A stretch of 64,000 nucleotides of DNA from Phytoseiulus persimilis (Eukaryota; Arthropoda; Arachnida; Mesostigmata; Phytoseiidae), in assembly GCA_037576195.1 (NCBI GenBank), contig CM075101.1, positions 12,338,001 through 12,402,000 on the forward strand, written 5' to 3'. A program made the position numbers and the translations under genes. This document shows positions 1 to 15,460 of the stretch, one piece after another (within the stretch, counting starts at the first letter, position 1; every line of letters starts with the position of its first letter). The notes under the pieces were generated by a model. It was not told the DNA's origin and made no database searches. It was given only the letters and a program-made list of their open reading frames with translations.

Positions 1-970
1 GTGTCCTCCTCCTCTTTCATTCCTCCCTCCGATCCGTCATGCTCTTCCTTGGGACCTCTCCTTCTCTCGAGTTCTCGCTATGGAAAGATATTACGATTAG
101 GAATATTTCCGCGCTCCCTCGGCGGCCGTGATGCATCAACCTCACGGAGAACAAACAGCAGCTCCAGGATGGATTCCAAAAGCTCACCTGTTTCCGTTGT
201 TGGATGATCTCGGTAATCGTCATTTCCGACTCCGGTTCTTCATCATCTGGAGGTCCTTCCAAGAGGAAAATCCGTGAACTGAAGCCGAACTTGATTTGAT
301 ATCCGACCCTCACTCTGTGATAACTCTTCGCATCCACCCGCTCTTTATTCAACTGCGTGCCATGAGTGGAGCCCAAATCATACAAGTAGAAACCTGGGGA
401 GACAACGCCGCAAGTTGAAATTTCGTCCAGGATTTTCAGCAGACCATCAGAAAAACTGGTCTTATATTGAGGTAATATAATCTTTGATCGGGAAAACCCA
501 CCTTTCAGCTTCTGAGCAGCCTCCGTTGCATCTGGTGGCGGTCGTCGGTACTGCAAAACGGCGTGAAACCTAGATATCGACGGGTGCTCCAAGATCATGT
601 CGCAGTCTTGGTGTCTGCCGATTATGAAGGAGCTTCTGTTGAGTTTCTTCTCCGTAACGATAACTCCATGACGTAGGACAACTACTTTGTAATAGGTTTC
701 AGGCGTACCCGCCCAATCTGGCTCTTCATATGGGCATTTTTGAGCAGGATAAAGTTTCGGAGATGGGGCCTTGGGACCCTCTTCATTCGGTGGTTCTTGT
801 TTTCCTGGCGCGTCGGGTTTTTTGAAGTTGGCATCATCTTCACGAATATCAGGATTCATTGGTTTTTGGAATTCGAGATCCCCATCGCTTGCTCTCGACT
901 TCTCGGGCACGGGCAGAAACGGTGTCTTGAACGTCGGTGCCGCGTCTTCACACTTCTGTTCGTCGGACAT
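1..970 (-). CDS. SLC4A1AP: Kanadaptin homologue (SLC4A1AP), 5' part, runs off window
   Basis: This is the N-terminal part of a kanadaptin, a nuclear FHA-domain protein whose human relative was first described as binding the anion exchanger kAE1. Exons read on the minus strand are 970-502, 393-188 and 77 to beyond position 1; phases agree (1, then 0). An acidic and proline-rich N-terminus of about 85 residues precedes the motif CPYEEPDW, then an FHA domain with FIIGR, HPSISRFHAVLQ and LYDLGSTHGTQLNK, the usual phosphothreonine-binding loops. After the FHA domain comes the ESEMTITEI..RKQ segment and then a charged stretch, as in the vertebrate protein. The intron 501-394 is 108 nt, a multiple of three and without stop codons, so its retention would add 36 residues inside the FHA domain. 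The ATG at 970 is the first in frame. The rest of the gene lies outside the window. Confidence 0.9.
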
Positions 971-1568
971 GCTCCCCTCTGGTTCGACTGCCTTGCCCTT
1001 CGATCGGACCAGACAACCGACAGCTTCGGAAAACTCTGAGAAACTTTATCACAGACACATGGAAGGTTGCGAATCCAACCTCAAAGCAAGTAGTCGCTTG
1101 AGACGTTCCGAATAACGTTATAGCAGGTTTTCGATGGAACTGTTGTGCTGAGGCCACTCAGAGTTGCCTTCACTGAGATCTGCACACACGTCGTGGTTTT
1201 GACACTTCCCCAATGATCGTTGAGCGAGCAGAAAAAAATCTTCAAGTACTCCGAAGAAACCAAACACTAACTCGCATCATGTGTTCGGAGAGGAACGATT
1301 CTCGTTCGGAGAAGTCGCAACAGCTCAACGTGTTCCGAGATTTTGGAGGGAGTCCGGCGGCGCTCGCTGCCAGAAGTGAGACAGCCGATTTACCTATTAG
1401 ACGGAGAGCTTCTGCAGCGAAAACTGCTACCTGACGTCAAGAGAGAAATGCGCGAACCTGATTGAAGACGTTTTTCTTCCGATTGCTTTCTGTTGTTCTC
1501 GTGTGAATACTGTGAGGAGCGATGCAGTGCCTCCAGATGTGAAATAGATACATTTCTTCGTACAAATT
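971..1568. promoter_or_regulatory. Divergent intergenic region between kanadaptin and oxt
   Basis: These 598 bp separate the start codons of two genes transcribed away from each other, so the segment must hold both 5' untranslated regions and both core promoters. I see no obvious TATA box. A shared bidirectional promoter is an inference from layout alone. Confidence 0.45.
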
Positions 1569-6297: not shown

Positions 6298-6628
6298 TGT
6301 CGAAGATTCCGTGCACTTTAAACTTAATCTGAATGATGAGAGCCTCTGGTTCCGAATACTCGAAGAGTCGTAAGCACCGTTCTTCAGAAAGCGGACTGAG
6401 AACTGGTACAGCGTCGGCGTAGCATACGCGACGATTACGACGACTACAGCGATAGATAGAATACGACATTTATTGAAGTAAAGTATGCTGCTTATATATC
6501 CTATGGATCAGGGTTACATGAGAGGGTAACTATAGACGAGCGCTTCCGTCAGGGACGCCGTACCATGGCCATCGGCTCGTCAGCCGATGCCGCTGTATGC
6601 TTGGCCGTCTGAGCGAAATATTACAACA
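6298..6628 (-). repeat. Copia 3' LTR
   Basis: The 331-bp repeat matches 15130-15460. In element orientation it carries a TATATAAG box (6498-6491) and an AATAAA signal (6474-6469), which in this 3' copy should direct polyadenylation of the genomic RNA. The AATAAA overlaps an ATG (AATAAATG) that opens a short frame in both LTRs. Confidence 0.95.
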
Positions 6629-6642
6629 AAGCCCCCCATTTC
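6629..6642 (-). promoter_or_regulatory. Polypurine tract of the copia element
   Basis: In element orientation the sequence GAAATGGGGGGCTTT lies directly against the 3' LTR. A purine run in this position primes plus-strand DNA synthesis. The 12-mer GAAATGGGGGGC recurs at 7392-7381. Confidence 0.8.
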
Positions 6643-6895
6643 AAGCAGGCGGGCAAGAATGCATATAGACGAAATTCGTAATAATCAAAATGAACCTTAT
6701 CCAAAAATATGTCGCCTAGAATTCTATACTATGATTCGTATCATATGTTCACATTCCAGAGCATGAGGCTGATTCGGGAGATTCCTTGAATGTTGGTTCT
6801 TGTTGTTTGATCTCCTCGCTTATGTCACCAGACTCCCTTAGTTCGATGTTGAGTCTGTCGAGTTTCATATTGTCTTGAAATCTCGAGCTCTGAAG
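6643..6895. other. Spacer between polypurine tract and first antisense gene
   Basis: About 250 bp with no supported frame. If the antisense frames are transcribed, their promoter should lie here or in the adjoining LTR. I recognise no specific element. Confidence 0.3.
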
Positions 6896-7353
6896 ATGTC
6901 TTCGTTGATTGCGCGTCTTACTCGATTTCGACGTTTTCGTGGCTCCTATGGTGTTGCTCAAGCTGAGCAACACGAAATGAGTGAGGTCAATCTTGCTGGT
7001 GATTTGGAGCCTCGTTATGTTCCGGACGTGATTGTTTCGGATCCTGTTTCCTGTTGTACACGTCCGCTCCTTCTGTTGCTCGTCCTTTGCCTATTGTCAT
7101 TTGCTGGGAATGTGACAATGTTGGCCTGGATCACTGAGCGTTAGTATCGTCGATATTTTGATGCATATAATTTCATGCCTTTCTGATGTTTGATATATCG
7201 ACCATATTTGCAGATCCTACTTATCCTCATGGTGATGGCGTATCGTCAGCTCATCTGTTGAAGGAACTCGGGTCTGCTCCAACGAATCTGTCCGTTTTGC
7301 TTTTTCCGGATGGATCTTGTTTGTGTTCGTTGGCGGCGAGCGTTGATGTTTAA
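6896..7353 (+). CDS. Antisense two-exon membrane protein inside the copia element
   Basis: On the strand opposite to gag-pol, exons 6896-7139 and 7214-7353 join with matching phase (1) through a 74-nt intron with a GTTAGT donor and a TTTGCAG acceptor. The predicted product has 127 residues: a basic N-terminus (LTRFRRFRG), an acidic stretch, one hydrophobic span at about residues 57-79 (a leucine run followed by a VTMLAWI segment), and a short C-terminal domain with two cysteines. I do not recognise the family. The first ATG at 6896 has a purine at -3. The clean splice pair is the best sign of coding; the reading frame alone would be too short to be convincing. It overlaps the next frame (7310) in a different frame. 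Confidence 0.45.
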
Positions 7354-8212
7354 TGGCAGGGCTGTAGAGAACATCACACGGCCCCCCATTTCGAGGAATG
7401 TCTCGATTGGATTGTCGGCGTCCGGGGCAATTGAACTGGATGCTTCTGGGGAAACCACTCCAGAATACATCCCCGCACAAACGAACGCTTCTGTTGATGT
7501 TACGGAAACGACTTCCTCTCCTTCGCCGATTTTGTTGAATGTTGATGGCGCGTGGACGTCTGCTTCGGATCACTCTCTCCCCGTCGGTGGCGGAACACGT
7601 GTTGTAGAGCAGTCTGTAACGGTTCCGCAGTCGGCCGATCCAGCTTTGATTTCGGCTAGTGATCGTGTTGTTTCCATCGCGGTGCCTGCTTCTAATAGAT
7701 CGATCGAGGTTCCAATCGTCGTGAATCAGGCAGGCAATTCTGTTGAGCGTCGTCTTGAGGATTCGCTAATTGACAACACTCGCTCGACTACAATTCGACC
7801 GGAGTCGGAGATTTCAACAATAATCGCCGACGTCATCCACCCGCATCGTTCTCCAACACAAGAAGTTACTGCTGCACAATCGGAGAGACCAATGATTGTT
7901 TCGGCTATGCTCAAGATCAAAGAGCTGATGAAAGATCTGAAGAATCGTCCGCACAAATACTACTATAGACCAAACAAATTTGTGTGCTGGCATAGATCTC
8001 ATAATCTCTCCGTATGTGTTTCTACTGCAGACTTTATCTGCCTGATACAGCCTACTCGATATGACTCCAGCGGTCGACCCAATCCTCTTAGGGTCTCTGA
8101 GTCGCTGAAAGTAGCAAAGCTATCTGAGTCAGATCGAGCGTCTTTTGAGAAGCTGTACGGGACGATACCGAGGTGCAGAAATTTTTCTTGGTACATTGGA
8201 ATATTTCTCTGA
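7310..8212 (+). CDS. Antisense 300-aa Ser/Thr-rich, sequon-rich protein
   Basis: An uninterrupted frame of 300 codons starts at ATG 7310 (frame open from 7262) and is followed 9 bp after the stop by AATAAA (8222-8227), which supports a real plus-strand transcript end. The first two thirds are rich in Ser, Thr, Val and Pro and contain several N-glycosylation sequons (NIT, NVS, NAS, NRS); further sequons (NLS, NFS) lie near the end. The last third is basic then Cys-containing (KIKELMKDLKNRPHKYYY, FVCWHR, FICLIQ). Composition suggests an exposed ectodomain, yet the frame itself has no signal peptide or membrane span. One possibility is that the membrane exon at 6896-7139 is spliced onto it through a weak acceptor near 7340. 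No family recognised. Confidence 0.5.
   Translation: MDLVCVRWRRALMFNGRAVENITRPPISRNVSIGLSASGAIELDASGETTPEYIPAQTNASVDVTETTSSPSPILLNVDGAWTSASDHSLPVGGGTRVVEQSVTVPQSADPALISASDRVVSIAVPASNRSIEVPIVVNQAGNSVERRLEDSLIDNTRSTTIRPESEISTIIADVIHPHRSPTQEVTAAQSERPMIVSAMLKIKELMKDLKNRPHKYYYRPNKFVCWHRSHNLSVCVSTADFICLIQPTRYDSSGRPNPLRVSESLKVAKLSESDRASFEKLYGTIPRCRNFSWYIGIFL
7381..7392 (-). repeat. Second copy of the polypurine-tract 12-mer
   Basis: GAAATGGGGGGC in element orientation is identical to the 12-mer at 6642-6631 next to the 3' LTR. Retroviruses and some retrotransposons use a second internal purine tract for plus-strand priming. Whether this copy is used cannot be told from sequence. Confidence 0.45.
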
Positions 8213-8525
8213 TTGATTCCGAATAAATCACTTCAACTGTACTTATCATGCATCCTCTCTTTTATCGTGGTATATCGTCCTGCGTTTCTGCATACATTTT
8301 ATGCTCCGTATGCTTTGAGAAATTGTGGTTTCTTGTCCCTATAAAATGGCCTGACTCTTCTCCATTGGTGTGCCGAGTCTTTTCTCAGCCAAATAAGGAA
8401 GTTCGTCAAACGAAGAGAAAAGGAAACTTCCATCCGAAAGTTGACTGTAGGTTTTGTCCGACCTGTTTTTCTCTTTGTCATATGGGCAAGTTCTTGGTTC
8501 TGAATTTGTCCCTTTACACACACAG
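8213..8525. other. Antisense intergenic stretch with AATAAA and a 3' splice site
   Basis: It begins with an AATAAA (8222-8227) just after the 7310-8212 frame. It ends with a pyrimidine-containing CACACACAG that abuts the ATG of the next frame, which could be an acceptor for an upstream untranslated exon. Short frames in between look like noise. Confidence 0.3.
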
Positions 8526-9092
8526 ATGCATTCGGGAGATCGCGATATCGTCGAGAGTTCGCTGTCGTCGAGCGCCGTCGACCCTACGTATCAGACGCTG
8601 CATGATTTCGGTGGTATCCGGAGGTTGAGAAACCCTGGTCGCTATCGGCTGGCAGCGATCGTGGCGCTCTGCACCTTCCTGTATGTGACGATTCCCGGCG
8701 TTGCATTTGAGGTCGCCCAACGCGCGGACCCGTTTGCCAGCCCTGTATATACCGAAGTCACCCGTCCTCTCCCACCGGCCCTGCACACCATCAAGGGTCC
8801 GGTGGTGACGACGGGTGTGGGGACATCATCACCCACCGACATATTTCATCTCATTTCATCCGAAGGACGCTCCATTGATATTCATACTTCATATTTCATT
8901 TGTCGCTCATATTCAAAATTCAAAATTTGTGTGGATGGCTATCAGAATGCATGTGTGGTGCGACCAAATTCAAATTCTACTCTAAAAATCATCACTGCTC
9001 ATCAACTCATCATCAAAAAGGACGTGTTCGCACACACAGTTCTAGTAACTGATGTGTGCGAAAATAAACGAAAACTCATAAGTCGATCCTGA
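8526..9092 (+). CDS. Antisense type II membrane protein inside the copia element
   Basis: The ATG at 8526 follows a possible splice acceptor directly. The 188-residue product has a hydrophilic N-terminus of about 40 residues ending in positively charged residues (IRRLRNPGRYR), then a hydrophobic span at about 42-61 (AAIVALCTFLYVTIPGVAF) and a lumenal or extracellular C-terminal part. That part begins Pro-rich and contains three cysteines and a sequon. Charge distribution predicts N-in, C-out (type II) topology. No family recognised. The DNA in the second half is more AT-rich than the first half. Confidence 0.45.
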   Translation: MHSGDRDIVESSLSSSAVDPTYQTLHDFGGIRRLRNPGRYRLAAIVALCTFLYVTIPGVAFEVAQRADPFASPVYTEVTRPLPPALHTIKGPVVTTGVGTSSPTDIFHLISSEGRSIDIHTSYFICRSYSKFKICVDGYQNACVVRPNSNSTLKIITAHQLIIKKDVFAHTVLVTDVCENKRKLISRS

Positions 9093-9431
9093 GAGAACGT
9101 GTCGTCAATTTTCCCGCCTGTGTACTCAAGCTCTAGATGCCATCCGATGCTCGGATGATGCTGCAGTTATTTTCGGAGCTTTGAAGCGGTACAGCCATTC
9201 GGATTCCTAAGTGGTTCTCGAGTTGCTTGTTAGTGATTGATTTCTTCGGCTAAACATTCTTTAGTGAGCATCTGGGGTCAAGCCATCCCTGTTTCGTAGC
9301 TTTCCCTCTCTCGGATCCTTCCCCTCGCTTTGTGGTTCGGGTCATCGCCTTAAAAGATGTTTCCGACGTTTCGGAGTTCACAACGCTTTTTGTGTGCTTC
9401 GTCTCAGTGTCTTTCAACTTCATCGACAAAC
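9093..9431. other. Spacer between antisense frames
   Basis: About 340 bp without a supported frame. It presumably holds the end of one antisense unit and the 5' region of the next. No defined signal seen. Confidence 0.3.
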
Positions 9432-10035
9432 ATGTCCGCGATCAGGCCCGATGCATGCCCGTGCTGCGGGTACAAAGGCCCGTCCCCAGTGACCAGACAA
9501 ACGGTCACCTGGGATGATGTCGACGATCCGAGCTGTGACATGGCCTCGTGGAAATCGCTGCCACGAATCTGCCACTGCTCGGTAGCGGATTGCTGGTGTG
9601 AACACCAGCACTCGTTGCTCAGGTTCAACCACCTGGGCCGAGACTTCGAGGGACTGCGGTTCCTCGACATTCTTCAGATGCCGAGCGATGTCTATTCTGC
9701 CGTGGAAAAAAGCCAGGATCCATCTCCAAATGGATCGCTTCCCAGCTCCGTCGAGGCGCGGATTCGACGAATTCAACAGTCTGATCCGCGACACCTTCGG
9801 CGATCATCAGCGTCGCATCCCAGCTTCGCTGATCGTCGCCGAGTGGGAGGCGAGGACCCCAGAATACCGGGGTCGCCTGGAAGACCTGGCGGCGAACCGC
9901 GTCATCGTGGAGGAGGTGAAGAAGATCCGCACCCACCTCTACGCAAATCCGGATCTCTGGCCGAGAGGCCTAACGGAAAATGCCTTCACAAGCTGGTTCA
10001 ACTCCGGCTGTGATTTTATCATTCCTCCTTGTTAA
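9432..10035 (+). CDS. Antisense Cys/His-rich protein split by a frame change at an A6 run
   Basis: The frame from ATG 9432 encodes an N-terminal cysteine-rich region (CPCCGYKG, later CHC..DCWCEHQH) that looks like a zinc-binding module, then a stretch ending DILQMPSDVY. At 9706-9711 lies AAAAAA. Beyond it the original frame becomes low-complexity and Arg/Gly/Pro-rich (stop at 10011-10013). The +1 frame instead gives well-balanced protein sequence (GFDEFNSLIRDTFGDHQ, ASLIVAEWEART, EEVKKIRTHLYANPDLWP) ending at 10033-10035. An AATAAA overlaps that stop. Either a one-base indel in a homopolymer (mutation or sequencing) or programmed frameshifting would explain this. Function unknown; the N-terminus suggests metal binding. 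Confidence 0.45.
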
Positions 10036-10179
10036 TAAATTGTTATATGTATCTCATGTGATTCTTCTCTGAGTTAGTCTGGCAGGTATGTTACTCACTC
10101 ATCTCATGTTTTTCTTTTTCTCTACGTAAGCCTGACTATTTACTTTGCTGACTAGTCAGTCTTCTCTCGCCTTCAAAGC
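10036..10179. other. Convergent gap between antisense cluster and membrane-protein frame
   Basis: These 144 bp separate the stop of the plus-strand Cys/His frame from the stop of the minus-strand membrane-protein frame. The AATAAA for the plus-strand unit lies at 10034-10039. Confidence 0.4.
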
Positions 10180-10731
10180 TTATTCTGAAGGGGGAGACTG
10201 CTGTCGCTCGATCCCGCTGCCGGAGGCTTCGTCAATGCTTTGAACGGTTGTTCTGTACGGCATGGTTGGATCGTCTACTATAGAAGTGTCCACTGGCTCG
10301 TAAGACAAACGAGCTCTGAACTTCAGTAGTTTGAGCATCACAATTCCCGAAAGCGTACTGAGTGACACTAGCCCTTGAATGGCGGATAGGTACTTCCAGA
10401 AATTGCAGTTCGGTGTTTGTGGAATTGGTGGACATGGCTTAACAGTCGGCTTTGGTGGCAGAGTTCGATTTCGATACTCGGGCCACAGTCTGAGTCCTCC
10501 TGAGGTTGGAGAAGACTCTTTAATACAGGGAGCGTATTCACTGGTGTGTAGTTCACACAATGCCAGTGGTGTACAAAATGATGAGAATCTACCAGAATCC
10601 AGTTTAACTAACATACATGGAGAGTTTCGTGTTATGCATTTGGCGTCGCAGTCTGAGTAGCTAAAGTATTGGTTAGAGGGGATTATGAATATTGTTACTG
10701 CTACGAATACCTGCTGCATTACTGACGCCAT
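10180..10731 (-). CDS. Env-like small type I membrane protein of the copia element
   Basis: A 183-residue frame in the sense direction of the element. Its ATG (10731) overlaps the pol stop by 13 nt in another frame. It has a hydrophobic N-terminal signal (about residues 5-18), an ectodomain with eight cysteines and one sequon (NRT at 88), a Pro-rich stalk, a membrane span at about 113-134, and a 45-residue tail that includes YEPV. This is the layout of a small type I surface protein. A candidate acceptor (CAATCAG at about 10761-10755) just upstream and the leader donor at 15096 would allow a spliced mRNA. It is far shorter than retroviral Env and I see no fusion peptide or furin site, so 'env-like' refers to position and topology only, not to demonstrated fusion activity. 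Confidence 0.6.
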   Translation of the reverse strand: MASVMQQVFVAVTIFIIPSNQYFSYSDCDAKCITRNSPCMLVKLDSGRFSSFCTPLALCELHTSEYAPCIKESSPTSGGLRLWPEYRNRTLPPKPTVKPCPPIPQTPNCNFWKYLSAIQGLVSLSTLSGIVMLKLLKFRARLSYEPVDTSIVDDPTMPYRTTVQSIDEASGSGIERQQSPPSE

Positions 10732-13700
10732 CTCTCAAGTCCTGACAGTTCTCTCTGATTGAGGAATACTGACTTTACACAGGGCTTGGTTAAGTAGTCC
10801 GCTCTTTGATTGGCGCTTCCAACGTGCTCGATCCCAATTTCTTGATTCGAGTAGAGCTGTCGAATGTAATGAAATCTGAGTTCCATATGCTTAGCTCTCC
10901 GATAGTGTCTGGCATTCTTGAGCAATTGAATGGCTGACATCGAATCTATCTGGATGATCGGCTTTTCTGGGATACCCAATTCTCCCAGAAGGTTGCGAAG
11001 CCAGAGCGCTGACTTGATGCATTCTGTGGATGCCACGAACTCTGATTCCATGGAGGAAAGCGAAATGTTCGCTTGTTTCGTGGAGCTCCAAATAATTGGG
11101 CCCCCTTGTCTGAGTATCAGACATCCTGAAGTAGACTTGCGATCCTCAATGGATCCAGCGAAGTCTGAATCGCTGAAGTACAGCGTGCCTTGGGTGTCAT
11201 CACTTCTGTACGTGATGCCCAGATCTGAGGTTGTCTTCAAGTATCTCAGAACTCTCAAGCCAGCCTGGAAATGCTGAGGAGTTGATTTGTCCATATATCT
11301 TGATAGGTAGGAAGTGACGAAAGAAATGTCAACTCTCGTACCGCAAGCCAAATATAGGAGAGCTCCTATCAGAGAACGATATTCGGTATTAGAGCACGGA
11401 CCGTTGGTCTCGATAGAGTATATCGAATTGTCACATGGGGTGACTGCTCCTTTTGAATCTGACATACCGAATCTCTGTACCAACTCGTCCACGAATTTCT
11501 TTTGATGAATGTGGACCGAGAAGTCGCTGCCTCTTTCGATCTGAAGACCTAGAAAGTATCTAAGACCAGAAGTAGTGATCTCGAATTCTTTCCTGAGGGA
11601 AGTTATGAATTCCTCCGCCTGTCTTTCAGTCTTCGTTGCAAGTATGGCATCATCGACCCATATGCACAAGAGCATGCGATTTTCTCCATTCTTGAAGAAG
11701 ATACAGCTGTCAGTTTTGCTCTGTTGAAGTCCTCTGGACAGAAGGATCTTCGTTAGCTTATCAAAGAAATTTCGGCTTGACTGCTTGAGGCCATATATGC
11801 TTCTCAGTAGTTTCAATACCTTGTTGGCCTGTACTCCTCTTACGCCTTCAGGCACCTCAAGATAGAGGTCTTCCTCGAGTTCTGCTTGAAGAAAAGCTGC
11901 GCGTACATCAAACTGATTTAAGAAAAGTTTTTCCTGCGCTGCTAGACTGAGGATCGTTCTGATTCCTTCAGCTCGGGATACGGGGCTGTATATCTTGTCT
12001 GCAAAGAAGTCTATTTCTTTCTTCTGCGAATATCCCTTCGCAACTACTCGAGCCTTGTAACGTCCTGAGCCATCTGGGTTAGCCTTGTACTTGAATACCC
12101 ATTTGGAGCCAATGGCCTTACGTCCAGGTGGTAGTGTTGCGGGAGTCCACACCTTCATGTCAGCCATTGCCTGAAGTTCTTCTTCAACGGCCATCGTCCA
12201 TTGGACGCGATCGGGGCTTGCCATTGCTTCTTGATAAGTCATTGGCGTTTGGCTTTTTGGCTGAACGGTGTCGGCTGCTGCCCTTTCCTTTTCCGATATC
12301 CCACTAAGATGGTTGAGGTCAGCCACAATCTGCAGTCTTTCCGTACGTTTCTTGTTCGCCTTGGGATTAATGCGTACGAAACCTTCTTCGTCGCTTTCGT
12401 AATCGCTTGAGGCGCTTTCGTACATGGGTGCTGCTGGCTTTGGTGAATTTATTCTTGAACCTGTGACCTCCGTATCGTGATTGGCTTCTTTCGCAATGTG
12501 CGCTGCTTCCGCAGTATTTTCCGAAGCACTTGTTTTTCCACTTGCCTTGGTTCTGCCAGAACCTTGCCTTTTAGTGGAAGCGATCTTCGCGAATGTTACG
12601 TCCTTCGATCGCATGATAATTCGTTTCTCTGGGATATAGACACGAAATCCAAGATCGTAGTCTAGGTACCCAACGAATATCCCCGCGATTCCGCGGTCAT
12701 CCAGCTTCCCATTTGGGTTCTTGTTGTGTACGTAGCACGGTGTGCCAAATGCGTACATTCTGCTGGTGAATGGCTTTCGCTTGTATATCATCTCGAAAGG
12801 CGACTGTAGAGTCTTTTCATTTATCAGTACTTGGTTCAAAACTTGAACACAGAAAAGGATCGCCTGGTCCCAAAGGAACTTCTTATTTTCGAGGCCTGCT
12901 CCGATCAACACTGATCGAGCTAGATTCACGAGAGTTCTGTTTCCTCTCTCTGCTTTTCCTGTCAAACGGGGTTGTCCCGGAGGGGCGAACGTTTGTTCTG
13001 CTCCGATCCTTTCCAGGATCTTCTTAACCTTTTGGTTTCTGAACTCCGTTCCGTTGTCACTGTGCAACCTCTGAATGTTTTCGCCAACTACGTTTCTGAA
13101 CCATTTTACGTAGGAGGCAACGTATCGATAAGTGTCGCTCTTTTTCTGGAGAAACTCGACCTTTCGATAGCTGGTTGCTTCGTCAGTGAATAGAAGGAAA
13201 TGGTTTGCTTTTTCTATTGACTCTACATTAGGCGAACAAAGGTCTGCCGTTATGATGCCCGGCTTCTGAGCTTTCGCCTGATCAGGGCGGCTCCTGTACG
13301 TGATTCGGGTGAGCTTCCCCTTCAGACAGGCGTCACATTGGTCTAGATCATCAATGTACTTGATACCCTGCTGGTTCAAATATTTAATCACGTACTGCCT
13401 ATTAACATGGGCGAACTTTTCATGCAGGCTTCTAAGGCTCTGCGTCTGTGCACTCATCGTCTTTTCTGAGCCAATGGCGCTCATCACTTGGCTTTCAGAC
13501 GGAATATCATGATTCATGTCGTCAAGATCGCTGTCTGCGTCTTGGTCTACGGATTCTTGATCGCTTGCCTGATCTTGTAGTAATCCGATCTCCGAGTCCA
13601 TTCTTAATCTGTAGAGGCCTTCTATCTTGGGTACTCGGATCCTCATATCGTTTCTCGAAATTATGAGGTGATTCCTTTTGAACGTCACTTCGAAATCATC

Positions 13701-15032
13701 ATCTGTCAATTGACTCACAGAGAGGAGATTCTTTCGAACTGAGGGGACAAGTAAAACATTTTTAAGCTCTAAAGCTATTCGCTGCTTAGACTCTCCGACA
13801 GTCAGCTCGGCTGTGCCAGAAGCGGTGACACGCAGTTTCTGGTTGCTTGCTAAGGTGACGGCGCGCATGTCGGTTTGTTGGTCAAAGCTAGTGAACCACT
13901 TTCTTGAACTACTGCAATGGTGCGACGCGCCGGAATCTACGAGGAACTCATCGGTTTCGCTCGTGTCATACTTGACGTGAGCTAGGAGTGCGACGGCAGT
14001 GCTTGCTCGAGCATGCGATCTATGCTGTCCGCTTCCTCCTTGATAACCTTGATCTCGCCGAGGGCGGGTACACTGGGACTTGAAATGTCCTGTTGCACCG
14101 CAGTTGTAACACTTTACTTGTCTTCTGTTTGGTCTATTACTCTGGTGGCGTGAACGGTTCTGTTGACCATAGCCACTGCTGCTGGATCCTTGTGAATGAT
14201 GGCTGGGGGCATTTCTTCGATGAGAACGATTTTGGAATCTACGTTTTGGTGCAAACCTGCGACCAACTCTCATCTGAGAAAGCATAGCAGTCGCCTGATC
14301 CAATTCCTTGGATGGTCTTTGGCGAATTGCTTCATTCTTGATAATTTCCATCAGACTGGAGACATCCCTATCGCCTTCTGGTCGGGCTGAGAAAGCCATA
14401 CGAAGGGGTTCCCAGCTATGTGGCAGAGCATTGAGCAGTTGTTCAACCTGAACCTTCTGATCGATCTCAATTCCAGAATCCGTGAGTTCGGCTTGAAGAT
14501 CGCGGAACCTATCCAGGTTCTGGTCAGCAGTCTTGCTCTTATTGAACTTGAACTGCATCAATTTCGCGATGGCCGAACCTTGCCGCAGAGCGGCTCGGAC
14601 TCCAAACTTGCTTGCGATCTGGGACCAGATATCCGCTGCTCTGACATCCTGAGTTTGTCCGTAAAACATTTGGACAATCAGTTTGTCGTTGATCGAAGAG
14701 AACAATTGGAGTCTTGCTTTTCGATTTGCTCTATCATACCGAACCTTGACTTTCTTTTGATCATCATTAAGCTCGGTGGCTGGTTCGGTTGGGATTGGTT
14801 CAACTAGGTCTCCTTTCACGACTTCCCAAACATCTACGGTTTGTTGTAGGAAGATGGGCATTAAGGATTTCCAACTCAAATAGTTTTGTCCAAACAGACC
14901 TAGGGTCACTGGGCATGGGGCAAGCCTGGTATAGTTCGAGTCGGATGGACGGGGCTCTGAATCGTCCTTCTTTAGCGCGGCAGGTTCATCTTCCTGCGCA
15001 GCCAGATCGTATTGGTAGTCGTCGTCTGCCAT
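10719..15032 (-). CDS. Copia gag-pol polyprotein, intact
   Basis: One uninterrupted frame of 1,437 codons from ATG 15032; the frame is open further upstream, but only a GTG precedes. Domains in copia order: gag of the UBN2 type in the first 250 residues, a basic Arg-rich region, a CCHC zinc knuckle (CYNCGATGHFKSQC, about 308-321), aspartic protease with VDSGASHH (about 366), integrase with HHCC zinc finger (about 537-570) and catalytic DDE core (TADLC, HSDNGTEF, KAERGNRT), reverse transcriptase with WVFKYK, QFDVRAAFL, YGLKQSSR and active site WVDD (about 1125; most copia have YVDD), then RNase H (YFSDSDFAGS, SSMESEF). Integrase preceding reverse transcriptase assigns it to Ty1/copia. No stops or frameshifts, so it is potentially autonomous. 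Confidence 0.96.
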   Translation of the reverse strand: MADDDYQYDLAAQEDEPAALKKDDSEPRPSDSNYTRLAPCPVTLGLFGQNYLSWKSLMPIFLQQTVDVWEVVKGDLVEPIPTEPATELNDDQKKVKVRYDRANRKARLQLFSSINDKLIVQMFYGQTQDVRAADIWSQIASKFGVRAALRQGSAIAKLMQFKFNKSKTADQNLDRFRDLQAELTDSGIEIDQKVQVEQLLNALPHSWEPLRMAFSARPEGDRDVSSLMEIIKNEAIRQRPSKELDQATAMLSQMRVGRRFAPKRRFQNRSHRRNAPSHHSQGSSSSGYGQQNRSRHQSNRPNRRQVKCYNCGATGHFKSQCTRPRRDQGYQGGSGQHRSHARASTAVALLAHVKYDTSETDEFLVDSGASHHCSSSRKWFTSFDQQTDMRAVTLASNQKLRVTASGTAELTVGESKQRIALELKNVLLVPSVRKNLLSVSQLTDDDFEVTFKRNHLIISRNDMRIRVPKIEGLYRLRMDSEIGLLQDQASDQESVDQDADSDLDDMNHDIPSESQVMSAIGSEKTMSAQTQSLRSLHEKFAHVNRQYVIKYLNQQGIKYIDDLDQCDACLKGKLTRITYRSRPDQAKAQKPGIITADLCSPNVESIEKANHFLLFTDEATSYRKVEFLQKKSDTYRYVASYVKWFRNVVGENIQRLHSDNGTEFRNQKVKKILERIGAEQTFAPPGQPRLTGKAERGNRTLVNLARSVLIGAGLENKKFLWDQAILFCVQVLNQVLINEKTLQSPFEMIYKRKPFTSRMYAFGTPCYVHNKNPNGKLDDRGIAGIFVGYLDYDLGFRVYIPEKRIIMRSKDVTFAKIASTKRQGSGRTKASGKTSASENTAEAAHIAKEANHDTEVTGSRINSPKPAAPMYESASSDYESDEEGFVRINPKANKKRTERLQIVADLNHLSGISEKERAAADTVQPKSQTPMTYQEAMASPDRVQWTMAVEEELQAMADMKVWTPATLPPGRKAIGSKWVFKYKANPDGSGRYKARVVAKGYSQKKEIDFFADKIYSPVSRAEGIRTILSLAAQEKLFLNQFDVRAAFLQAELEEDLYLEVPEGVRGVQANKVLKLLRSIYGLKQSSRNFFDKLTKILLSRGLQQSKTDSCIFFKNGENRMLLCIWVDDAILATKTERQAEEFITSLRKEFEITTSGLRYFLGLQIERGSDFSVHIHQKKFVDELVQRFGMSDSKGAVTPCDNSIYSIETNGPCSNTEYRSLIGALLYLACGTRVDISFVTSYLSRYMDKSTPQHFQAGLRVLRYLKTTSDLGITYRSDDTQGTLYFSDSDFAGSIEDRKSTSGCLILRQGGPIIWSSTKQANISLSSMESEFVASTECIKSALWLRNLLGELGIPEKPIIQIDSMSAIQLLKNARHYRRAKHMELRFHYIRQLYSNQEIGIEHVGSANQRADYLTKPCVKSVFLNQRELSGLERWRQ

Positions 15033-15090
15033 GGCCCTAGGTAGGTCACTCCAAGTGGGACCGATGTCAAAAGGAAGTAATTGCACTTAT

Positions 15091-15097
15091 ACTTACT
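15091..15097 (-). promoter_or_regulatory. Consensus 5' splice site in copia leader
   Basis: In element orientation GAGA is followed by GTAAGTAT, a near-perfect donor, between the primer-binding region and the gag ATG. Its place matches the major splice donor of retroviruses. Use is inferred, not shown. Confidence 0.5.
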
Positions 15098-15111
15098 CTC
15101 AGGTACTCTGG

Positions 15112-15129
15112 AGTATCGTGCTGATAACG
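15112..15129 (-). promoter_or_regulatory. Candidate primer-binding site
   Basis: The bases directly after the 5' LTR read CGTTATCAGCACG in element orientation. The complement (CGTGCTGATAACG) resembles an anticodon stem-loop rather than a tRNA 3' end. Copia elements often prime from an internal tRNA fragment, so this would fit a half-tRNA primer; an isoleucine-type tRNA is the nearest I can think of. No tRNA database was searched. Confidence 0.45.
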
Positions 15130-15460
15130 TGTCGAAGATTCCGTGCACTTTAAACTTAATCTGAATGATGAGAGCCTCTGGTTCCGAATACTCGAAGAGT
15201 CGTAAGCACCGTTCTTCAGAAAGCGGACTGAGAACTGGTACAGCGTCGGCGTAGCATACGCGACGATTACGACGACTACAGCGATAGATAGAATACGACA
15301 TTTATTGAAGTAAAGTATGCTGCTTATATATCCTATGGATCAGGGTTACATGAGAGGGTAACTATAGACGAGCGCTTCCGTCAGGGACGCCGTACCATGG
15401 CCATCGGCTCGTCAGCCGATGCCGCTGTATGCTTGGCCGTCTGAGCGAAATATTACAACA
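15130..15460 (-). repeat. Copia 5' LTR with promoter elements
   Basis: The 331-bp repeat matches 6298-6628 along its full length. A TATATAAG box at 15330-15323 predicts transcription start near 15297. AATAAATG at 15306-15299 joins a poly(A) signal to the ATG of a 109-codon frame (15301-14972). That frame leaves the LTR, crosses the leader and overlaps the gag start codon in another frame. Confidence 0.95.

Follow-up and report, generated by a model that had tools for sequence, protein, structure and literature searches.

Evidence for a conserved cluster of antisense genes in a Ty1/copia retrotransposon lineage of Phytoseiulus persimilis

The window analyzed here is a stretch of 64,000 nucleotides of Phytoseiulus persimilis (contig CM075101.1, positions 12,338,001 to 12,402,000), and its positions 6298-15460 are a single long terminal repeat (LTR) retrotransposon lying on the minus strand. 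We read this element as one member of a Ty1/copia lineage whose pol is followed, ahead of the 3' LTR, by an accessory module of one same-sense frame, ORF2, and three antisense genes, which we call A, B and C. To this reading as a whole, including the roles proposed below for the proteins, we give a probability of about 0.6. That the antisense genes form a real, conserved cluster is close to certain in our judgment.

The copies of the element show to what the accessory region belongs. The genome searched was a 181-Mb assembly of 127 contigs, and loci were fetched from four contigs of 28-55 Mb (loci are cited by L numbers and contigs by C numbers). The LTR has at least 40 matches in the genome, and the accessory DNA has 13 matches over at least 90% of its length, plus many fragments. 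The last 1.5 kb of pol has 36 matches, 22 of them nearly complete, and in 19 of these 22 near-full-length copies accessory DNA lies within 0.6 kb of pol; the remaining three have only pieces 8.8-9.6 kb off or protein-level remnants. This count used 44 of the 70 accessory matches and nine places found at the protein level. Since 19 of the 22 pol copies carry accessory DNA alongside, the region is part of the element and not a one-off. An earlier interpretation made from the letters of the window (hereafter the sequence-only reading) had named as its alternative a one-off nested insertion; a foreign segment would then have jumped into this copy only, and its frames would be passive. Genes on both strands of one element are typical of nesting, and one relative, L041, does hold a nested element that is presumably of Ty3 type. 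Against it stand the adjacency to pol just described, an ORF2-antisense layout kept in diverged lineages, and purifying selection on the frames; the idea is refuted by the copies found and retains a negligible chance. The features of the window copy are as follows, where aa stands for amino acids, TM for transmembrane, and pN/pS for the ratio of nonsynonymous to synonymous differences.

15130..15460 (-): 5' LTR, 331 bp, identical to 6298-6628
10719..15032 (-): gag-pol, 1437-aa copia polyprotein; Pfam and PDB matches
10180..10731 (-): ORF2, 183-aa sense protein; list of open reading frames (ORFs), alignment of relatives, pN/pS
10034..10039 (+): AATAAA of gene A
9432..10035 (+): antisense gene A, CxC..CxC-type, about 200 aa; pN/pS, relatives L044 and L045
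9063..9068 (+): AATAAA at the end of gene B
8526..9092 (+): antisense gene B, 188 aa, predicted type II membrane protein; copies, pN/pS, hydropathy
8222..8227 (+): AATAAA of gene C
7214..8212 (+): gene C exon 2, Ser/Thr-rich stalk and four-Cys domain; pN/pS 0.36
7140..7213 (+): gene C predicted intron, 74 nt, phase 1; candidate scored in L031, L034 and L038
6896..7139 (+): gene C exon 1, predicted cytoplasmic part and TM segment; pN/pS, TM-like segment
6631..6641 (-): polypurine-tract-like stretch directly before the 3' LTR, found by eye
6298..6628 (-): 3' LTR, 331 bp, identical to the 5' LTR

Downstream of pol, the window copy continues with ORF2 in the same orientation, followed by about 3.5 kb that carries opposite-strand genes and ends at the 3' LTR. 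Stop-free runs of at least 180 aa in 6629-10179 number three on the antisense strand and one on the sense strand; in 500 sequences simulated for the antisense strand with a first-order Markov model, such runs averaged 0.1 and never exceeded 2. The antisense (+) ORFs of the window lie at 6896-7144, 7310-8212, 8248-8628, 8526-9092, 9357-10013 and 9688-10035. Of these, 7310-8212 is mainly the second exon of gene C, whose frame is broken in this copy; 9357-10013 is broken halfway, and the remainder of gene A runs on in the frame of 9688-10035. The ORF 8248-8628 was rejected as a gene, its frame being stopped in six of the nine copies aligned below, and the sense ORF 9404-9670 was rejected likewise (stopped in eight of nine). 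The antisense genes are thus three in number, not four or more. The sequence-only reading had proposed accessory genes on both strands with at least four antisense frames: the sense ORF2 and the antisense genes are real, the frames amount to three genes, and two frames were misread, genes A and C being broken in the window copy. Its count of three predicted membrane proteins (ORF2, B and C) and one further protein was borne out, A being the Cys-rich one.

Nine LTR-bounded copies including that of the window were aligned (L036 and L040 not included). Divergence from the window copy in this alignment was 0.1-1.8% in pol, 0-3.3% in ORF2 and 0.7-2.7% in 7310-8212 (gene C). It reached 9.8% in 9354-10035 (gene A) and 24% in gene B, which is gap-free except in the indel-rich L033. 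L039 is without most of 7310-8212. The frames are not broken at random, the other alternative raised earlier: ORF2 and B are full-length in eight of the nine copies each, against four of nine for pol.

For rate counts L033 was excluded for its many small indels, leaving eight copies. Pooled over these, pS and pN/pS were 0.031 and 0.22 for pol, 0.064 and 0.21 for ORF2, 0.29 and 0.31 for gene B, 0.082 and 0.34 for C exon 1, and 0.033 and 0.42 for C exon 2 (0.36 with window coordinates). For gene A they were 0.144 and 0.29 in the N part and 0.138 and 0.11 in the C part (0.19 in the six-frame comparison). As a control, all six frames were compared in five antisense segments of the eight copies. 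The proposed antisense frame had the lowest pN/pS in all five segments, with values of 0.19-0.36, below the bound of 1 that the sequence-only reading had set as a test, and with 0, 1, 2, 0 and 0 stops. Every other frame had a pN/pS of at least 0.6 or at least 10 stops. The sense frame with coinciding third positions had a low ratio (0.26-0.47) but 10-65 stops, and another sense frame in the N part of gene A had one stop but a pN/pS of 1.15. Judged by these substitution patterns, ORF2, A, B and C are under frame-specific purifying selection. Gene A appears to decay fastest or to be dispensable in many copies, though its substitutions still look constrained; genome-wide, five gene A matches among those listed sit in stop-free 207-aa frames.

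These counts also bear on whether any antisense transcripts would act as RNA, for example as double-stranded RNA that regulates the element, with the frames as leftovers. Antisense non-coding transcripts have been reported in other retroelements (PMC7264820, in the sections available), and several copies have disruptions in the frames of A and C. Frame-specific selection, Cys residues invariant in 12 diverged genes and predicted introns that restore the frame all point to translation, and we consider the RNA account very improbable.

Signals at most of their ends suggest that the antisense genes may be separate transcription units. AATAAA was found at 14 of 17 antisense gene ends (-40 to +80 nt of the stop), as against 0-10% of windows of that size taken from these loci. 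The 17 ends come from the window, L041-L047, L049 and L050, the A end of L045 being taken at its last coding word; those without the signal are the C ends of L041, L042 and L047. When the stretch between the membrane segment and the Cys domain was scanned for introns, eight of the relatives' 11 B/C genes gave a candidate. The best one in each is in phase 1, 61-98 nt long and 0-6 residues past the membrane segment, and the exon frames differ in seven of the eight. Shuffles of the stretch between the anchors reached the score 0, 0, 1, 0, 0, 1, 1 and 0 times per 2000. The eight predicted introns cannot be counted as independent, given the close kinship of L042 with L043 and of L046 with L050, and the choice of anchors followed sight of the scan result. 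In the window family, the gene C candidate was scored in L031, L034 and L038 with position and phase as in the relatives, its acceptor is TTTGCAG, and its splice-site letters are identical in the eight copies aligned over it. Spliced antisense mRNAs are, on this evidence, likely.

Homologues of B, C, A and ORF2 were found in the genome by protein searches down to about 30% identity. Ten regions with relatives were fetched, L041-L050. ORF2 was detected in nine of them and not in L044, where 5 kb was fetched; the B/C cysteine domain was recognised in seven (L041, L042, L043, L046, L047, L049 and L050) and gene A in three (L041, L044 and L045). To study the layout, matches were entered by hand: 145 of 152 for ORF2, 37 of 55 for A, 43 of 54 for B and 37 of 53 for C, with further antisense matches from later searches (4 of 42, 45 of 59 and 7 of 8). 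Omitted were further fragments of a gene already entered, weak fragments and most units of tandem arrays. Among the 173 antisense matches entered, 128 lie downstream of and opposite to an ORF2 within 9 kb, 12 are arranged differently and 33 have no ORF2 in reach. The ORF2-to-antisense spacing clusters near 151, 1095, 1974, 95 and 245 nt. An ORF2 lies just downstream of 106 of the 145 C-terminal pol matches entered, among the matches listed and with five pieces left out; the ORF2 list is nearly the same as in the spacing count. The share falls from 22 of 23 at pol identities of at least 90% to 11 of 29 at 30-37% (again among the matches listed). As read from homology and gene order, diverged copia lineages keep ORF2 facing antisense B/C-type genes.

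The module could alternatively be a captured host gene cluster, carried as cargo and serving the host or nothing instead of the element. Introns and AATAAA are features of host genes, and the 33 antisense matches free of ORF2 include an A homologue with a 250-aa frame in L044 and, at C2:5.27-5.35 Mb, three weak homologues. On the other side, several of these 33 matches are window-family fragments, and diverged lineages retain the arrangement of ORF2 and the antisense genes. Cargo of this kind seems improbable to us. In the L044 area two A homologues with 250-aa frames lie about 10 kb apart (L044:1369-2118(-) and C3:37332047-37332358) with no ORF2 match within 9 kb; they are possibly a host gene or part of another element.

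The window element is a young, recently moved member of its large Ty1/copia lineage, as its sequence attests. Its 331-bp LTRs are identical, start with TG and end with CA, and are flanked on either side by TGAGA; it is the identity of the LTRs and the TGAGA duplication that argue for a young insertion. TG..CA ends with a 5-bp target duplication are as in Ty1/copia, and such duplications are legible in seven of nine other stretches with flanks (with one base of slack in L033) and not readable in the other two, L036 and L037. In the window copy the tRNA primer site would be expected in the sequence that follows the 5' LTR, at 15080-15130(-). The gag-pol is one 1437-aa ORF with Retrotran_gag_2, zinc knuckle, Pol_BBD, rve and RVT_2 in copia order, in accord with the intact copia gag-pol reported earlier from the sequence. 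Pfam placed Retrotran_gag_2 at residues 66-241, rve at 592-688 (32.2 bits, slightly below the cut-off of 32.6) and RVT_2 at 960-1200 (1e-54). Integrase before reverse transcriptase, RVT_2 and a copia-type gag are again as in Ty1/copia, and the integrase part matches PDB entry 7z0h (E 1.3e-20), which we take to be the Ty1 integrase. An arthropod host, also proposed earlier, agrees with 112 Chitin_bind_4 matches over cut-off in this genome and 0 in 14 control genomes. Chitin_bind_4 is a cuticle-protein family, and a family that large points to an arthropod.

What, then, might the proteins do? B is read as a type II membrane protein with a TM-like segment at residues 42-60 and a four-Cys ectodomain, and C exon 1 has a TM-like segment at 58-76; hydropathy shuffles reached the TM-like score in 46 of 1000 cases for B and 5 for C exon 1. 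The four Cys are invariant across 12 B/C domains, and B and C are probably paralogous type II membrane proteins that share this ectodomain. Gene A is CxC-rich, and its profile searched against 5.8 billion proteins (E 0.01) gave a single match, 94% identical to the profile's first sequence. An HMG-box identity for A, suggested by its pattern, was dropped for want of Pfam or PDB support. ORF2 starts with MASVMQ and overlaps the pol stop. It has a hydrophobic N-terminus, one TM-like segment, six Cys that are invariant across 10 ORF2s, and a tail PYxPT (PYRTT in the window copy). Among the 5.8 billion proteins at E 0.01 it matched only itself, and one scan of viral_contigs gave no relative. It departs from FAST-like proteins (63-107 aa, an ectodomain of about 30 residues, an N-myristoylation motif), and membership in sORF2/FAST was rejected on its 183 aa, its six-Cys ectodomain and its start. 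No sequence relation to the fusion glycoprotein of retroviral Env was seen: Pfam gave nothing at cut-off for ORF2, B or C, and neither the profile of ORF2 nor that of B/C matched a PDB entry below E 0.3.

Two observations on these proteins may be added. At L036:3095-8226 (C2:5591913-5601116) four complete 322-aa frames fuse A and B in tandem units of about 1389 bp, and similar A-B arrays are indicated at C2:5663-5678 kb. The L036 fusion hints that A may work beneath B at the membrane, though its four units go back to one amplified event and do not count as independent evidence. Among the matches listed, about two dozen ORF2 homologues of the L046 type (e.g., C4:545312-545809) have a single in-frame TGA, the frames being about 184 aa long; this would be either an inherited stop or readthrough.

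We propose that the antisense genes would be separate, host-style transcription units. On the sense strand, introns and AATAAA would be spliced from, or would end, the genomic RNA, and the genes may sit backwards because such signals would damage it. The intronless B of the window family would fit a spliced antisense mRNA copied back into the element. ORF2 might be used like env or sORF2, for assembly or for passage of particles between cells. B and C would be surface proteins and A their cytoplasmic partner, together setting which cells or co-resident elements are compatible. A role at membranes or in transfer is tentative and falls somewhat short of even odds. The most speculative step makes B the part that confers specificity, since B alleles that are old and divergent persist alongside a nearly uniform pol; a compatibility or exclusion role of B is unlikely, at perhaps one chance in five. 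The fuller proposal of an antisense recognition locus, in which B (and C) would be surface receptors and diverse B alleles would decide the compatibility of co-resident elements or cells with an ORF2 transfer protein in superinfection exclusion or self-recognition, is slightly more doubtful still.

The B alleles deserve a closer look. In 24 of the 28 copy pairs synonymous divergence was 0.08-0.82 in B versus 0.020-0.054 in pol; the other four are three near-identical pairs and L037/L038. In L037/L038, B is nearly the same (0.023) and pol as different as in other pairs (0.041), whereas in L035/L039 pol is close (0.020) and B distant (0.297). These conflicts indicate that the region recombines and that B carries old alleles. 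Distances in pol are uncorrelated with those in ORF2 (rho 0.07) and A (0.18), the pairs not being independent. Fast protein change as the source of the B divergence was rejected, because the pooled ratio is 0.31 and the synonymous sites are equally old; within B, pN/pS is 0.18 in the Cys domain, 0.20 in the membrane segment and 0.59 at the cytoplasmic end. Gene conversion or template switching with older elements, with no selection for diversity, could produce the same peak. The two distance conflicts show recombination, and the ratio is purifying across the whole of B. The peak nevertheless falls at the same gene in 24 of 28 pairs, and the adjoining C exon 2 stays at 0.009-0.116 in those pairs. 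We put this account only slightly below an even chance; it is compatible with the accessory module of ORF2, A, B and C except for the role of B.

A number of results weigh against the module as we read it. Gene C has both exons open in only four of the nine aligned copies (L031, L032, L034 and L038) and gene A is open at full length in one (L034), so that not all genes have to be intact in a copy that moves. With tblastn, no gene A was detected in seven of the ten relatives' regions. No intron candidate was found in three of the 11 B/C genes of relatives (L041 C, L042 B and L050 C), gene B of the window family has no intron, and the gene C intron predicted in that family has a weak donor, GTTAGT (-2.5), and was outscored by a different candidate in L034 and L038. 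The TM-like segments of ORF2 are unexceptional by hydropathy (107 of 1000 shuffles). Distances in pol and B are correlated (rho 0.65, with pairs not independent). Finally, A, B, C and ORF2 have no Pfam family at cut-off and no PDB match below E 0.3, and the functional reading is therefore drawn from layout alone.

Animal copia elements are generally regarded as carrying nothing beyond gag-pol, and a limited search of open-licence literature gave no animal copia precedent for antisense genes. The plant Ty3/gypsy elements Grande, RIRE2 and Retand carry antisense ORFs of unknown function; conserved ones occur in 97% of Retand clusters with TRP28, and in about half of Retand elements the pol-3' LTR stretch contains tandem repeats (PMC7264820, PMC11963269, as far as the accessible text goes). 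The present element is like them in its long pol-3' LTR region with conserved antisense ORFs. It differs from Retand and Grande in being Ty1/copia and in an arthropod genome. In place of TRP28 its antisense genes encode predicted membrane proteins and a CxC protein (TRP28, PF04195, is not among the Pfam matches of A, B and C). Its antisense genes also stand in a row with AATAAA and predicted introns, whereas the word "intron" occurs 0 times in the main text, as available, of PMC7264820 and PMC11963269.

A second comparison is with sORF2 of the Drosophila MDG1 group, a short same-sense membrane protein for cell-to-cell passage, which lies downstream of pol in some Lepidoptera, all candidates being in forward orientation (PMC11952523, in the portion at hand). 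ORF2 is likewise a short, same-sense, predicted membrane protein of an LTR element. Unlike sORF2, it has 183 aa, a hydrophobic N-terminus, a six-Cys ectodomain and no MGxxxS/T start, and it belongs to Ty1/copia; the available part of the sORF2 account describes no antisense genes (PMC11952523). LTR elements of bdelloid rotifers have acquired varied ORF3s, some with TM domains (excerpts of PMC5408684). They share with our element added ORFs, some of them TM, in an animal LTR element; they are retrovirus-like lineages, and those excerpts make no mention of an antisense cluster. Deltaretroviruses express the antisense proteins HBZ and APH-2 under 3' LTR promoters (PMC10186651, PMC11963269, parts consulted). 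The likeness lies in the antisense encoding of proteins, predicted ones in our element. HBZ and APH-2 are nuclear proteins; here there are three genes, each ending with AATAAA in the window copy, and two would encode membrane proteins. As to a spliced transcript of the HBZ kind, the window element has the predicted intron of C.

The interest of the system is that a whole lineage in one arthropod genome keeps an antisense module with poly(A) signals and predicted introns. Such a layout would let a retroelement carry ordinary nuclear genes with its genomic RNA unharmed. If the proteins act at membranes, they would offer a testable case of envelope-free spread in copia, and the diversity island in B would be a natural experiment in specificity among co-resident elements. 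The conserved antisense genes of related elements suggest an unrecognised accessory toolkit. Shares of transposable elements in a phytoseiid mite genome are given in PMC6902594, which we cite from its available part.

Some smaller observations complete the description. The nested element of L041 has a gag-pol, called Ty3-type from its motifs, and occupies L041:1481-5253 between the antisense B-like and C-like genes. In L048 an unrelated 457-aa antisense frame stands beside the ORF2 homologue (L048:834-2204), and a long array of short repeats that is open in several frames lies at L048:2231-4001. Outside the element, window positions 17-1045(-) hold an open frame that encodes an FHA domain and probably represents a host-gene exon.

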